Source: Acholeplasmataceae bacterium (GTDB lineage Bacteria; Bacillota_I; Bacilli_A; Acholeplasmatales; Acholeplasmataceae). Taken from it: 64,000 nucleotides of DNA. This document shows positions 20,537 to 46,445 of the stretch, one piece after another. Numbering within the stretch: the first letter of the stretch is position 1; every line of letters begins with the position of its first letter. The stretch is taken from positions 1 through 64,000 of the forward strand of contig JAIPGC010000002.1 in assembly GCA_021736335.1 (NCBI GenBank), read 5' to 3'. The translations under genes were made by a program, and so were the position numbers. A model generated the notes under the pieces. That model worked only from the letters and a program-made list of their open reading frames with translations. It was not told the DNA's origin and did no database searches.

Positions 20537-20884
20537 TAATATGTCAATGTGCATAAGCCATGTTCTGTTCCCTAAAAGGGTGTGATCATTTATCTCTACA
20601 TCGTAGCATATATCGACTTTGATTCGTCTTTATACGTGCCCCTACCAAATTTTGGGTTGCTAGCTTGAGGGGTTTACCGCGTTTCATTTGTTCATTTCTG
20701 AACAACTCGTTTCTGTGGCACATTACGTCTAGGTCATAGTTTCCCTTAGACCATCAAACGCCGTTACGATTTCTCGTACCCTAAGTTATTTTTTCCTTAG
20801 GCACAAACACTACATTCATCTCAGAATGTGCTAGCATGGACTTTCCTAACCTAAATGAATAGGCTCGATCACCTTCCACTGACA
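20537..20884 (-). ncRNA. rnpB: RNase P RNA
   Basis: Catalytic RNA that matures tRNA 5' ends. On the minus strand the 5' part reads GTGGAAGGTGATCGAGCC, then GGAAAGTCCATGCTAGCAC (the universal GAAAGUCC core), later GACGTAATGTGCCACAGAAA and AAACCCCTCAAGC, and near the 3' end ACAGAACATGGCTTATG (pairs with the 5' core as P4). The length of about 345-350 nt suits a bacterial RNA, and the layout looks more like the Bacillus (B) type than the A type, but I did not fold it fully. It has its own promoter and terminator. Confidence 0.95.
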
Positions 20885-33392: not shown

Positions 33393-33886
33393 TTTACCTC
33401 CTGTTTAGTTGCTAATCCCAAATTGACATGACAATAACCACCAGGATTCTTTATTAAATAATCTTGGTGATATGCTTCAGCTAAATCATAATCAAGATTT
33501 GGTTTGACTTTAGTTGCTACACGATCGTAATTTTTACCAAAATATTTTTTCATGAAATCAACAATGAGTGGTTCATCATCACTATCATTAAAGTAGATGC
33601 CACTTCTATATTGATGTCCAATATCATGACCTTGTTTGTTGATGCTAAATGGATTAATTATTCTAAAGAAATGATCTAATATCTGTTCTAATGATATGAC
33701 GCTTTCTTCATAAATGACTTTACATGCTTCTGTATGCTTTGCAATACCTTGACATACCTGCTCATATGTAGGATTTTTCATGTTTCCATCCACATAGCCA
33801 ACAGATGTATCAACGACACCTTTTAGTTGATTAAAATAGGCTTCGACACCCCAAAAACAACCACCAGCTAAAACAATAGTCTTCAT
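33389..33886 (-). CDS. msrA: Peptide methionine sulfoxide reductase A
   Basis: Repairs S-methionine sulfoxide using thioredoxin. The catalytic block [11 protein letters not shown] is at the N-terminus, with [11 protein letters not shown] further on and a C-terminal YCHVNLG that could give a resolving cysteine. It has 165 residues, the normal size. Its ATG overlaps the aspS stop by one base (TAATG). An MsrB partner is not in the window. Confidence 0.95.
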
Positions 33887-35601
33887 TATTTTCCCACCTT
33901 TAATTGTAGTTCATCGAGTTGAATTTGATCAACATCGCTTGGAGCTTGCATCATCATGTCTTTTGCACTTTGAGTTTTTGGAAAAGCAACAACATCTTTG
34001 ATGTTGGATGTATTTGTCATCAGCATGACGACTCTATCAAGCCCTAATGCCAATCCACCATGTGGTGGTGTTCCATACTTTAATGCGTCAACAAAGAAAC
34101 CAAAGCGATGAGCAACATCTTCTTTAGTCAAACCTAAAGTATCAAACATTAATCTTTGAACTTCCTGATTATGGATACGGATTGATCCTCCACCTATTTC
34201 ATAGCCATTTAAGACGATATCATAGGCTTTAGCCATAGCTTCCTTTGGATTGTTTTTTAGAACTTCAGGATCTACAGGAGCTGTAAATGGGTGGTGCTTA
34301 GCATAATATCTTTGTTCTTCCTCATTGTATTCAAGTAGGGGCCAATCAACAACCCATAAAAATTTATAAACATCATTAGGAATCAATTTAAATTCATTTG
34401 CTATAGCTATTCTTAATGCTCCTAATGCTGATGATACTCGATCAAATGAACCAGGAACTAAAAATAAGATATCACCCTGCTTGAGTCCTAATGCATCTTG
34501 TTCTGATTCACTCATGAATTTCACAATACTGCCAGAGATTATACCGTCACTGTTTTTAACATATGCAAGTGCTTCACCATGGTTCTTTTTTACTATGTCG
34601 GTCAGCGCATCAATATTTTTTCTGGTCAGATGACTTCCATTTTCAACAAGTAATCCTTTGACGAAATCTCTATCATTGAAAAAAGGAACATCAATTGTCT
34701 TGAAGAAATGAGAGTAATCCTTAATTAATAATTCATAGCGCATATCAGGTTTATCTGTACCATACTTTTCCATTGCTTCCTGATAAGACATCTGGATGAA
34801 AGGTCTTTGAACTTCGACATTAAGAACCTTTTTGAATGTGTTAACCATAACTTTTTCAACCAATTCTTGAACATCTATTTGTTCAACAAAAGATGCTTCA
34901 ATATCGATTTGAGTAAATTCAGGTTGTCTATCAGCTCTTAAATCTTCATCTCTAAAACAACGGGCAACTTGAAAATACTTTTCAAAACCTGCAATCATGA
35001 AAAGTTGTTTGTAGATTTGAGGTGATTGAGGAAGGGCATAAAATGTACCTGGATATAATCTCGAAGGTACAAGGTAATCTCTAGCACCTTCAGGTGTAGA
35101 TTTACCCAAAATTGGTGTTTCTAATTCATAAAACCCTTCATCAACTAATGTTTGACGAATTGCTTGAGTAATTTGATGTCTTTTAATCATAAAGTTTTGC
35201 ATGACTGGTCTTCTTAAGTCCAGATATCGATATTTTAGTCTTGTATCTTCAAGAGCATCTGTATCATTAGATATAATGATTGGTGGATTTTCTGCAGAAC
35301 TCAAAATAGTGAGTTCAGTAACTTCAACTTCGATATCACCAGTATTTATCCCTTTATTGATGCTTTCTCTTTTTATGACAACACCTTTAGCCTCAATGAC
35401 ATATTCATTTTTAATTTTTAATGCAGTTTCATAATAGGCATTTTCAGGTTTGACAACAAGTTGAGTAATTCCAAATCGGTCTCTTAAGTCAATGAACATG
35501 AGACCACCTAAATTTCTATTTTTAGCAACCCAGCCTTTTAAGTATACTTCTTGATTTAAGTGGCTGCTATTTAATTCATTATTATGATGTGTATATTTCA
35601 T
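33886..35601 (-). CDS. aspS: Aspartyl-tRNA synthetase
   Basis: Class II synthetase, 571 residues, slightly shorter than usual. An N-terminal OB-fold anticodon domain (LKGWVAKNRNLGGLMFIDLRDRFG), motif 2 FRDEDLRADRQPEFTQIDIEAS, a bacterial GAD insertion in the middle, and motif 3 GLALGLDRVVML. It starts 1 base after hisS and shares with it the T-box leader upstream of the GNAT gene. Whether it is discriminating or also charges tRNA-Asn is not decided; no gatCAB is in the window. Confidence 0.96.
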   Translation of the reverse strand: MKYTHHNNELNSSHLNQEVYLKGWVAKNRNLGGLMFIDLRDRFGITQLVVKPENAYYETALKIKNEYVIEAKGVVIKRESINKGINTGDIEVEVTELTILSSAENPPIIISNDTDALEDTRLKYRYLDLRRPVMQNFMIKRHQITQAIRQTLVDEGFYELETPILGKSTPEGARDYLVPSRLYPGTFYALPQSPQIYKQLFMIAGFEKYFQVARCFRDEDLRADRQPEFTQIDIEASFVEQIDVQELVEKVMVNTFKKVLNVEVQRPFIQMSYQEAMEKYGTDKPDMRYELLIKDYSHFFKTIDVPFFNDRDFVKGLLVENGSHLTRKNIDALTDIVKKNHGEALAYVKNSDGIISGSIVKFMSESEQDALGLKQGDILFLVPGSFDRVSSALGALRIAIANEFKLIPNDVYKFLWVVDWPLLEYNEEEQRYYAKHHPFTAPVDPEVLKNNPKEAMAKAYDIVLNGYEIGGGSIRIHNQEVQRLMFDTLGLTKEDVAHRFGFFVDALKYGTPPHGGLALGLDRVVMLMTNTSNIKDVVAFPKTQSAKDMMMQAPSDVDQIQLDELQLKVGK

Positions 35602-35602
35602 G

Positions 35603-36871
35603 TTATTTCTCCAATTTTTCTAATAAATACTTCTTGATTTTTGGTATCAATACTTCTTCTTGAATTTCAGTTTTTGTATCTTTGATAGCAACGACACCTT
35701 TTTGGTATTCTTCTTCACCTAAAATAATCAGATATTTTGCTCCAAGACGAAGTGCTTGCTTGAGTTGTCCCTTAAAGGCTTTTTGTGTGTAGTTGGTATC
35801 TGCTACCAAATTAGCTTTTCTTAATTCATATAAAATTTCAGTTGCAACAGTTCTTAATTCGTCTTTGAATACGATAACGAAAGCATCAAGTTCTCTTTCT
35901 TTTGCAAAACTCACGTTTTCAGCTTCCAAAGCCAGAAGCAATCTTTCCATACCAAAAGCAAATCCGATACCACCTAAATCAGGTCCACCAAGTTCTGAAA
36001 CAAGATTTTGATATCTACCGCCACCACCAAGTACGTTTTGAGCCCCAAAACCTTCGATATCAGCCTCTATTTCAAAAACTGTATGACTATAGTAATCTAA
36101 ACCACGAACGAGCTTAGGTGCGATTTCATAGCTAATTTTAGCAGCATTCAAATGATCAAGAACTTGCTTAAAATATGATCTAGATTCATGGCTTAGATAA
36201 TCTTGAGGTGTTGGTGCATTCTTAACTCTAACATTCTTTTGATCTACTTTGCAATCAAGAATTCTCAGTGGGTTCTTCGTCAATCTAACTTGACAGTCAT
36301 CACAAAGCTCACCAATATATGGAGTGAAATAAGTTTTTAGTGCTTCCTGGTAATTTGCTCTTGATGCTTCATCACCTAAACTATTAATTCTGACTCTAAC
36401 ACCTTTAAGTCCAAGTCTTTTAATAAAATCATAAGCTAAAATAATCATTTCAGCATCTAAAGCAGGATCGATTGCTCCTATTGCTTCAACACCAAATTGA
36501 TAAAATTGGCGATATCTTCCTTTTTGTGGTCTTTCATAACGGAAATTTGGTCCGATATAATAAACTTTTTCAAGTTCTTGGCTTGCATACATTTTGTTTT
36601 CAACATAACTTCTAATAATACCTGCTGTTCCTTCTGGTCTTAATGTCAATTTTCTATCACTACGATCATCAAAATCATAGGTCTCTTTAGTGACCATGTC
36701 AGAAAGTTCAGTGTGACGATGAAAAACATCACTGTATTCCATGATTGGTGTACGCATTTCTTTCATATTGTACAAACACAGTATGCTTCTTATCTTTTCT
36801 TCTAAAGCTTGCCAAAGATATGATTCATTTGGTAAAACATCATAAGTTCCTTTAACTTTGTTGATTGACAT
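35603..36871 (-). CDS. hisS: Histidyl-tRNA synthetase
   Basis: Class II synthetase of 422 residues, a dimer. Motif 1 includes RTPIMEYSDVF; motif 2 is FRYERPQKGRYRQFYQFGVEAIG; the histidine-binding LVRGLDYYSHTVFEI block and motif 3 GGIGFAFGMERLLLAL are intact, and a C-terminal anticodon-binding domain follows. It overlaps the GNAT gene by 20 bases, and both stand behind a T-box whose specifier region contains a His codon (CAC) overlapping an Asp codon (GAC). Confidence 0.96.
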   Translation of the reverse strand: MSINKVKGTYDVLPNESYLWQALEEKIRSILCLYNMKEMRTPIMEYSDVFHRHTELSDMVTKETYDFDDRSDRKLTLRPEGTAGIIRSYVENKMYASQELEKVYYIGPNFRYERPQKGRYRQFYQFGVEAIGAIDPALDAEMIILAYDFIKRLGLKGVRVRINSLGDEASRANYQEALKTYFTPYIGELCDDCQVRLTKNPLRILDCKVDQKNVRVKNAPTPQDYLSHESRSYFKQVLDHLNAAKISYEIAPKLVRGLDYYSHTVFEIEADIEGFGAQNVLGGGGRYQNLVSELGGPDLGGIGFAFGMERLLLALEAENVSFAKERELDAFVIVFKDELRTVATEILYELRKANLVADTNYTQKAFKGQLKQALRLGAKYLIILGEEEYQKGVVAIKDTKTEIQEEVLIPKIKKYLLEKLEK

Positions 36872-37430
36872 GATAGTCCTCCCTAGTTAGCTCATATGTG
36901 AGCAATTCATCTTTTAAAACTTGATCTCTTTTTTCTAATATGTACATCTCGGATTTTATATACTTGAACCCATTTTTTAAAATGACCTTTTGACTGGCTA
37001 CATTTTTCTTCAAATGCTTAATTCGTATCAAATCATAATCAAGATAATCAAAACCGATTTGAATTAATCGATTCAATGCCTTGGACATGATACCTTGATT
37101 CCAATAATCCTTATGGATTACAAATCCAACTTCAGCACCATTTACATTAATTATTTTACTATGAAAATCAATAGTACCTATCATTTTTGATTTTTTTAAA
37201 TCAATGACTGCGTAACCTCTTGGTAATCCTTCTTTTATTCTTGGATAAAAAATGGTCTGAATTGATTTCTTAGCTTCAACGGGCATAATGAATGGACCCC
37301 AATTTAAAAATTGAGTGACTTCTGGATCTTTACCATATTCATACATGTCTTTTGCATCGGATTTTTTGATTGTTCTCAGACAATAATCATCAAAATATAC
37401 CGATGGCATACGCTTATATAACTTTTTCAT
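36852..37430 (-). CDS. GNAT-family N-acetyltransferase (RimJ/RimL-like)
   Basis: From the ATG at 37430 (TTGGAGC upstream) it has 192 residues; the track start at 37526 lies in the T-box. The fold shows LRTIKKSDAKDMYEYGKDPEVTQFLNWGPF at the start and the acetyl-CoA binding NQGIMSKALNRLIQIGF, then NVASQKVILKNGFKYI, as in RimJ/RimL ribosomal-protein acetyltransferases. It is the first gene of the T-box operon, before hisS. Its substrate (ribosomal protein, antibiotic or other amine) is unknown; control by uncharged tRNA suggests a link with translation. Confidence 0.82.
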   Translation of the reverse strand: MKKLYKRMPSVYFDDYCLRTIKKSDAKDMYEYGKDPEVTQFLNWGPFIMPVEAKKSIQTIFYPRIKEGLPRGYAVIDLKKSKMIGTIDFHSKIINVNGAEVGFVIHKDYWNQGIMSKALNRLIQIGFDYLDYDLIRIKHLKKNVASQKVILKNGFKYIKSEMYILEKRDQVLKDELLTYELTREDYHVNQQS

Positions 37431-37444
37431 TTTTTGCTCCAATA

Positions 37445-37477
37445 AAATAAAAACATCCTTAAAATATCTAAGGACGT
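37445..37477 (-). terminator. T-box terminator
   Basis: ACGTCCTTA, loop, TTAAGGATGT followed by TTTTATTTT on the minus strand. It competes with the antiterminator containing the T-box sequence. Confidence 0.88.
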
Positions 37478-37640
37478 AATTGTATACGCGGTACCACCTT
37501 AGTTCTAGAACATTTCTAGCCCTCATTAATATGTTGTCTCAAAAGGTGTCACAATTCATGATATCTTGGCACTTTCACTATCTGCCATCGCTAATAGAAA
37601 TCTATCGAATTCTTCCTTCTTCACAGACGATTCACTTACA
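37478..37640 (-). ncRNA. T-box riboswitch for GNAT-hisS-aspS operon
   Basis: The T-box sequence AAGGTGGTACCGCG (37500-37487) is complete. Stem I is in the preceding part, with a distal GGCA/TGCC hairpin (GATGGCAG..TGCCAAGA). On its descending side lies AATTGTGACACCTT, where GAC (Asp) is followed by A, as usual for specifiers, and CAC (His) overlaps it by one base (GACAC, 37550-37546). Uncharged tRNA would stabilise the antiterminator and let transcription into the synthetase genes. Confidence 0.93.
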
Positions 37641-37645
37641 TAAAC

Positions 37646-37674
37646 ATGATAACTTAATTTGATGTTTTTGTCAA
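37646..37674 (-). promoter_or_regulatory. Promoter of the T-box operon
   Basis: Perfect TTGACA (37674-37669), 17-base spacer, TATCAT (37651-37646). It directly abuts the dtd stop codon. Confidence 0.85.
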
Positions 37675-38109
37675 TTATATTTCGATGATGATTGTCACCG
37701 GTCCATCATTGATGGATTCTATTTTCATGTGTGCACCAAACATACCTTTTTCTACATGACATGAATCTCTTAAATAATCATTAAATAAATCATATAATTT
37801 CATGGCATGATCAGGCTTTGCTGCTTCAATGAATGATGGCCGATTATTCCCTTTAGTATCACCATATAATGTAAATTGAGAAATGGATAAAATCTGACCT
37901 TTTGCTTGTTCCAGATTCAAATTCATTTTCTCATTTTCATCCTCGAATATTCTCAGTGAAATAACTTTATTTGCCATTTTCAATACAGTTTTTTCATCAT
38001 CATTTTGATGAATGCCAACATAGATTAAGTATCCTTTATCAATTGATCCAACCACTTGCTGATCAACAATGACTTGAGCTTCAGTAACTCTTTGAACGAT
38101 ACATCTCAT
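37675..38109 (-). CDS. dtd: D-aminoacyl-tRNA deacylase
   Basis: Removes D-amino acids (and glycine from tRNA-Ala) from mischarged tRNA. The protein of 144 residues has the MRCIVQRVTEAQVIVDQQVVG start, the active-site SQFTLYGDTKGNNRPSF and the C-terminal NDGPVTIIIE (GP cis-Pro gate). It overlaps the rel stop by 4 bases (ATGA), completing an apt-rel-dtd unit. Confidence 0.95.
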   Translation of the reverse strand: MRCIVQRVTEAQVIVDQQVVGSIDKGYLIYVGIHQNDDEKTVLKMANKVISLRIFEDENEKMNLNLEQAKGQILSISQFTLYGDTKGNNRPSFIEAAKPDHAMKLYDLFNDYLRDSCHVEKGMFGAHMKIESINDGPVTIIIEI

Positions 38110-46330: not shown

Positions 46331-46357
46331 GATAGTAAATGACAATAAATTATGTCG

Positions 46358-46436
46358 ACTATCCCTCCGCTGGTATGATCCAGATCAGGTTCGCGGGTCG
46401 ACTTTCGTCCTCTCAGCATTTAAGCTCCCCGTAGTG
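46358..46436 (-). ncRNA. TPP riboswitch (THI element)
   Basis: On the minus strand the canonical blocks occur in order: CGGGGAGC, GCTGAGAGGA, ACCC and GAACCTGATCTGGATCATACCAGCG, AGGGA. P1 forms between ACTA near the 5' end and TAGT at the 3' end. It controls the ThiT-like gene by transcription termination. Confidence 0.96.
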
Positions 46437-46445
46437 ATCACTCAT

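Follow-up and report, generated by a model that had tools for sequence, protein, structure and literature searches.

A T-box leader, probably specific for tRNA-Asp, before a GNAT-hisS-aspS operon in an Acholeplasmataceae bacterium

The operon and its leader

The window analysed here is a stretch of 64,000 nucleotides from an Acholeplasmataceae bacterium (contig JAIPGC010000002.1, positions 1 to 64,000). Its minus strand contains, in this order, a promoter, a T-box leader, an intrinsic terminator, a gene for a GNAT acetyltransferase (36852-37430; Acetyltransf_3, RimL-like), hisS for histidine--tRNA ligase (35603-36871; TIGR00442) and aspS for a bacterial-type aspartate--tRNA ligase (33886-35601; TIGR00459 / PRK00476). 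The leader sits between dtd (37675-38109) and the GNAT gene. An earlier reading of the DNA, referred to below as the original prediction, had described an operon of HisRS and AspRS behind a GNAT gene, and the domain matches bear this out. The terminator that it described is also present, as an intrinsic hairpin at 37477-37453 with the sequence ACGTCCTTAGATATTTTAAGGATGT followed by TTTTATTTTA. The sigma-70-type promoter (37646-37674), TTGACA-17-TATCAT, agrees with 11 of 12 consensus bases, which is a consensus match and not expression data; its description as perfect holds for the -35 box, but the -10 box has one mismatch.

In many relatives, too, a RimL-like GNAT gene separates hisS-aspS from the T-box, and these orthologues are 38-66% identical. 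A distant paralogue (27-33%) lies between a T-box and valS in the three genomes examined (L001; L189, L194). NCBIfam also includes an IleRS with a GNAT domain. Because RimL and MccE acetylate aminoacyl-adenylates broadly (PMC3817062), it is a plausible guess that the GNAT protein of the operon detoxifies synthetase inhibitors of the adenylate type. Elsewhere in the window, the Rfam scan identified an RNase P RNA of bacterial class B (20549-20880, minus strand, 255.9 bits) and a TPP riboswitch aptamer (46345-46441, minus strand, 62.3 bits).

The leader matches the T-box model RF00230 at 37633-37467 with 65.8 bits in a targeted scan by E-value (E 2.6e-14 for the stretch). This score is below the RF00230 gathering score of 93, which is a cut-off set by the curators and not a biological feature, so a default Rfam scan misses this T-box. 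The T-box proposed in the original prediction is therefore real, but the span given for it, 37487-37560, lies inside the leader and covers its 3' half only. A weak SAM/SAH match over the terminator (14.8 bits, E 0.63) was attributed to chance. Folding the leader as a whole without constraints was not informative in that it mixed Stem I with the terminator.

Stem I extends from 37628 to 37536. Its base helix, which is seen in the sequence and the fold and is conserved in relatives, is formed by GTCT (37625-37628) and AGAC (37539-37536), and a K-turn-like element lies between it and the lower helix, where AAGG (37615-37618) pairs with CCTT (37546-37543). The distal part of Stem I (37567-37592) carries a sequence motif like the tRNA-elbow platform of interdigitated T-loops, AGCGA-UGGCA-GAUAGUGAAAG-UGCCA, and the platform signature itself is found as AGCGA...AGUGAAAG at 37592-37572. 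The 3' strand of the specifier loop, GU-GAC-A, occupies 37547-37552 according to the sequence and the Rfam alignment. It belongs to the Stem I strand quoted in the original prediction, AATTGTGACACCTT, which is present at 37556-37543 with GACAC at 37550-37546.

Stem III is the hairpin CTAGAA-ATG-TTCTAG (37505-37519). In the antiterminator (37468-37502), CTAAGG (37502-37497) pairs with CCTTAG (37473-37468), and the T-box bulge is UGGUACC (37490-37496); both follow from the Rfam alignment. The leader is a genuine T-box, with a codon and purine in the specifier loop, a UGGNACC bulge and a competing intrinsic terminator, as is characteristic of RF00230. It has neither Stem II nor the Stem IIA/B pseudoknot, which are optional elements, and the RF00230 alignment skips that part of the model. 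From GAC to GGTGG, that is, from the specifier to the T-box core, there are 52 nucleotides, whereas most leaders from families with Stem II and Stem IIA/B have at least 64 and as many as 108.

Specifier register and tRNA 3' end

Ten other T-boxes are present in the same genome, and the register of the specifier was read from those with a known target. In the leaders of valS (GUC-A-CC), metS (AUG-G-UU), alaS (GCU-A-UC) and trpS (UGG-G-CC) the specifier triplet precedes a single purine, after which comes the 3' strand of the lower helix of Stem I. When the same rule is applied to the window leader, with AAGG paired to CCTT, it gives GAC-A-CC. The specifier in the canonical register is consequently the aspartate codon GAC (37548-37550) followed by A at 37547, just as originally predicted.

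It had further been proposed that the histidine codon CAC, which overlaps GAC in GACAC, is a second functional specifier, and that the leader could respond to tRNA-Asp through GAC or to tRNA-His through CAC by a register shift, so that starvation for either amino acid would induce both synthetase genes. The presence of GACAC before an operon that encodes exactly HisRS and AspRS is in favour of this reading. However, CAC (37546-37548) is two bases out of register; it lacks a purine on its 3' side, and the lower helix starts with its last C, a base that the helix would lose if CAC were the specifier. Placement by the Rfam T-box model, suggested with the original prediction as a check, sets CAC and not GAC under the specifier columns (consensus uuc), though only with a gap at the conserved a that follows. 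The alignment could also be taken to mean that CAC is the true specifier of a leader responding to histidine alone, with GAC as an incidental triplet. CAC was rejected as the specifier on this ground because it needs the gap at the conserved purine and conflicts with the register of the T-boxes with known targets, which gives GAC.

The overlap itself has a simpler origin. C is preferred as the third specifier base in T-boxes (review PMC7583486; TBDB), A is common as the base after the specifier and the helix often opens with C, and any sequence of the form NNC-A-C contains CAC. The RF00230 consensus is itself uucaCC. In the same genome the overlapping CAC occurs equally in leaders that are not connected with histidine: valS (GUCAC), asnS (AACAC), tyrS (UACAC) and ileS (AUCAC). 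In two relatives with near-complete genomes it is found in both asnS leaders, one tyrS leader and one ileS leader, while the other tyrS (UACGU) and the other ileS (AUCAU) are without it, and asnS-type leaders in the phylum sample repeatedly show AACAC. The CAC of the window leader thus appears to be a structural by-product, with its first C supplied by the specifier, its A by the conserved purine and its last C by the start of the helix, and as such would be largely dictated by T-box architecture. Overlapping codons in the specifier loop are to be expected from the consensus, and GACAC before hisS-aspS is not by itself evidence of a sensor for two tRNAs.

The T-box bulge points in the same direction. 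In this genome tRNA-Asp ends in GCCA and tRNA-His in CCCA, and UGGU of the window bulge can pair with the former, with a G73-U wobble, but does not fit C73 of the latter. Among 155 hisS leaders the fourth base of the bulge is U in 72, C in 79, A in 4 and G in none; U and C pair with G73 (by wobble and Watson-Crick pairing, respectively), whereas only G would pair with C73. The fourth base thus never matches tRNA-His, and neither UGGU nor UGGC agrees with a leader that responds to histidine alone. Both solutions for a G73 tRNA occur in the same genome, with UGGC before trpS (G73) and UGGU before serS (tRNA-Ser G73). The authors of TBDB ignore the discriminator test for histidine, given that mature tRNA-His may have its C73 paired, and for that reason the bulge is given less weight here than register and conservation.

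Leaders of hisS in relatives

Regions upstream of hisS were taken from relatives, many of which are metagenome assemblies, and the states of the leaders were sorted by eye from printed sequences; all of the evidence comes from sequence. Of the 74 readable orthologues of the leader within the order, 57 have GACAC, as do almost all leaders read from the class sample, which can be counted in favour of two codons in use. In 15 of the 74, GAC and the purine are kept but CAC is lost (GACAA, GACGC, GACAG), and this persistence of GAC also speaks against a leader with CAC as its true specifier. The reverse, loss of GAC with CAC kept, is seen in two of the 74, both GGCAC (L060 in G026 and L139 in G137). 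Those two could represent an aspartate specifier that tolerates G-U pairing, a switched specificity or a sequencing error.

A HisRS tree of 51 genomes requires at least two changes for GAC and six for CAC, and hisS is still in the operon where CAC has changed. The losses of CAC include Acholeplasma laidlawii and its relatives (GACAA; L224), where the leader is intact, and in the one relative with such a loss that was checked (G042, L163) aspS follows hisS. As to conservation of GACAC, the other check put forward with the original prediction, GAC is conserved across relatives and in this respect goes beyond chance, whereas CAC is lost repeatedly. In these leaders CAC is not conserved independently of GAC and of the T-box consensus, considering the 15 losses and its occurrence before valS, asnS, tyrS and ileS.

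Six short leaders do retain CAC although its last C is unpaired (L050-L052, L063, L066, L069), and there is a report of a natural T-box binding two tRNAs, going by the title of Saad et al. 2013 as cited in PMC7778990. The likeness to that T-box consists of two overlapping specifier-like triplets; the difference is that the second triplet here is a consequence of the T-box consensus and is sometimes lost while the specifier stays.

In leaders before hisS of Bacillaceae and Planococcaceae the canonical register reads the asparagine codon AAC within AACAC (L215, L229, L238, L240, L247, L255, L259, L263, L269, L276, L281); several of these leaders have the bulge UGGC, and four have UGGA. The specificity of T-boxes before hisS would accordingly not be aspartate everywhere. 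No triplet but CAC in the AACAC leaders of Bacillaceae corresponds to an enzyme of the operon, which could be taken as an argument for a use of CAC, with or without a second codon. In Bacillus, tRNA-Asn and tRNA-Asp have G73 and tRNA-His has C73. These leaders are not clear support for a functional CAC, in that the UGGC of several matches a tRNA with G73 (Asn or Asp) and not C73 of tRNA-His, and asnS leaders also have AACAC. A pattern able to catch canonical histidine specifiers (CAC-A-C) found only asparagine and aspartate specifiers in the sampled genomes of the phylum, and histidine T-boxes were for this reason of no use as a control.

The gene after hisS is not the same throughout. In G137, which belongs to a related family (f3), an archaeal-type AspRS (aspartate--tRNA(Asn) ligase; L181:1317-2618), possibly non-discriminating, takes the place of the bacterial AspRS, and five other loci of that family have a similarly weak AspRS match after hisS. 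Most relatives with reduced genomes, in a genus of small genomes (g7), have no leader match, and at least one of them (G047) keeps hisS and aspS adjacent.

With CAC out of register, present in leaders unrelated to histidine, lost in relatives and mismatched at the bulge, the two-tRNA response of the original prediction is unsupported. Dual use of the window leader for Asp and His is unlikely, and an improbable explanation of GACAC as a whole. A response to histidine alone is less probable still, even with the CAC retained in the two GGCAC leaders and in the AACAC leaders of Bacillaceae.

The leader is, with high probability, a transcriptional T-box riboswitch specific for tRNA-Asp. Against this reading are the Rfam score, the fact that UGGU pairs with G73 only by wobble whereas trpS of the same genome has the exact UGGC, the two GGCAC leaders and the AAC register in Bacillaceae and Planococcaceae. 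The elements of the leader, their register and conservation and the matching tRNA ends are read directly from the DNA; binding of tRNA and antitermination would be as in the T-box family in general. During a shortage of Asp-tRNA, the anticodon GUC of uncharged tRNA-Asp would pair with GAC (37550-37548) in the specifier loop of Stem I and the GCCA end of the tRNA with UGGU of the bulge, and the antiterminator would thereby be stabilised so that RNA polymerase reads through into GNAT-hisS-aspS. Charged tRNA-Asp would be unable to stabilise the antiterminator, and the terminator (37477-37453) would form instead. In such a mechanism hisS would be co-transcribed as a passenger of the aspartate signal.

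Reduced leaders and known T-boxes

Among the relatives, 31 orthologous leaders from nine genera of the family are also without the elbow platform (AGNGA...GGUGNAA). Stem I of these leaders is mostly 44-54 nucleotides long and consists of the base helix, the K-turn-like element, the lower helix, the specifier loop and a small hairpin. In G030 the specifier is in the terminal loop of a Stem I of 36 nucleotides, and G023 may be similar. In two genomes (G004, G044) the hisS leader is the only T-box reduced in this way, and the other T-boxes examined there keep a full-length Stem I. The clade of the window (G000, G013, G009, G018) has kept the platform and is nested among relatives with short stems on the HisRS tree. 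Because a similar motif is present in G026, this suggests that the platform has been retained here and repeatedly lost elsewhere rather than regained.

The small hairpin varies in sequence but its pairing is kept, with a summed helix length of 149 compared with 78 (sd 6.7) in shuffles. The automatic helix parser misplaced Stem I in six leaders (L109, L118, L124, L126, L133, L159), which were read by eye or parsed again, and two of them (L118, L126) are still misplaced in the repeated parse behind this comparison. Single short stems are not exceptionally stable in energy; it is the conserved pairing that argues for a short Stem I. These data also bear on the reading of the leader as a decaying, non-functional T-box, which the score below gathering, the loss of Stem II in the window leader and the loss of the platform in many relatives might suggest. 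Decay is nevertheless very improbable, since promoter, specifier, Stem III, T-box and terminator are all intact, the short apical helix of Stem I is maintained despite differing sequence and the leader is held in place across genera.

Compared with known systems, the window leader resembles Asp-specific transcriptional T-boxes (RF00230) in Stem I with its K-turn-like element and specifier loop, Stem III, the UGGN antiterminator, the terminator and the synthetase operon downstream. It differs in the absence of Stem II and Stem IIA/B and in having a small loop (AAG / GUGACA) in place of the usual AGUA/GAA specifier loop. Glycine T-boxes of the glyQS type are similar in that they have no Stem II and that Stem I is joined directly to Stem III and the antiterminator, but the specifier here is GAC and not GGC. 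They are named as T-boxes naturally without Stem II, a property tied to the strong GGC codon (review PMC7583486). The ileS (L010) and tyrS (L008) T-boxes of the same genome also appear to be without Stem II, despite their A-U rich codons, and so do the ileS and tyrS T-boxes of two relatives (L191, L190, L201, L202).

The ultrashort Stem I T-boxes of Actinobacteria (ileS; PMC7583486) are like those relatives of the window that have no platform, including G030, and apparently G023, with the specifier in or near the terminal loop. The actinobacterial T-boxes are translational and depend on Stem II, whereas the relatives have a terminator and no Stem II and the window leader still has its platform. 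Neither the window leader nor its relatives therefore belong to the ultrashort class, in which Stem II compensates for the missing platform.

The elbow platform of Stem I is regarded as a general necessity for transcriptional T-boxes (review PMC7583486). The balance of the sequence evidence leans slightly towards the view that the 31 leaders of the relatives work as "double-minus" transcriptional T-boxes, with no platform and no Stem II, which would select tRNA-Asp by its anticodon and NCCA end alone; the window leader would be a relative of this form in which only Stem II is missing. If functional, the double-minus orthologues would rank with the smallest transcriptional T-boxes found in nature and provide a useful minimal model.
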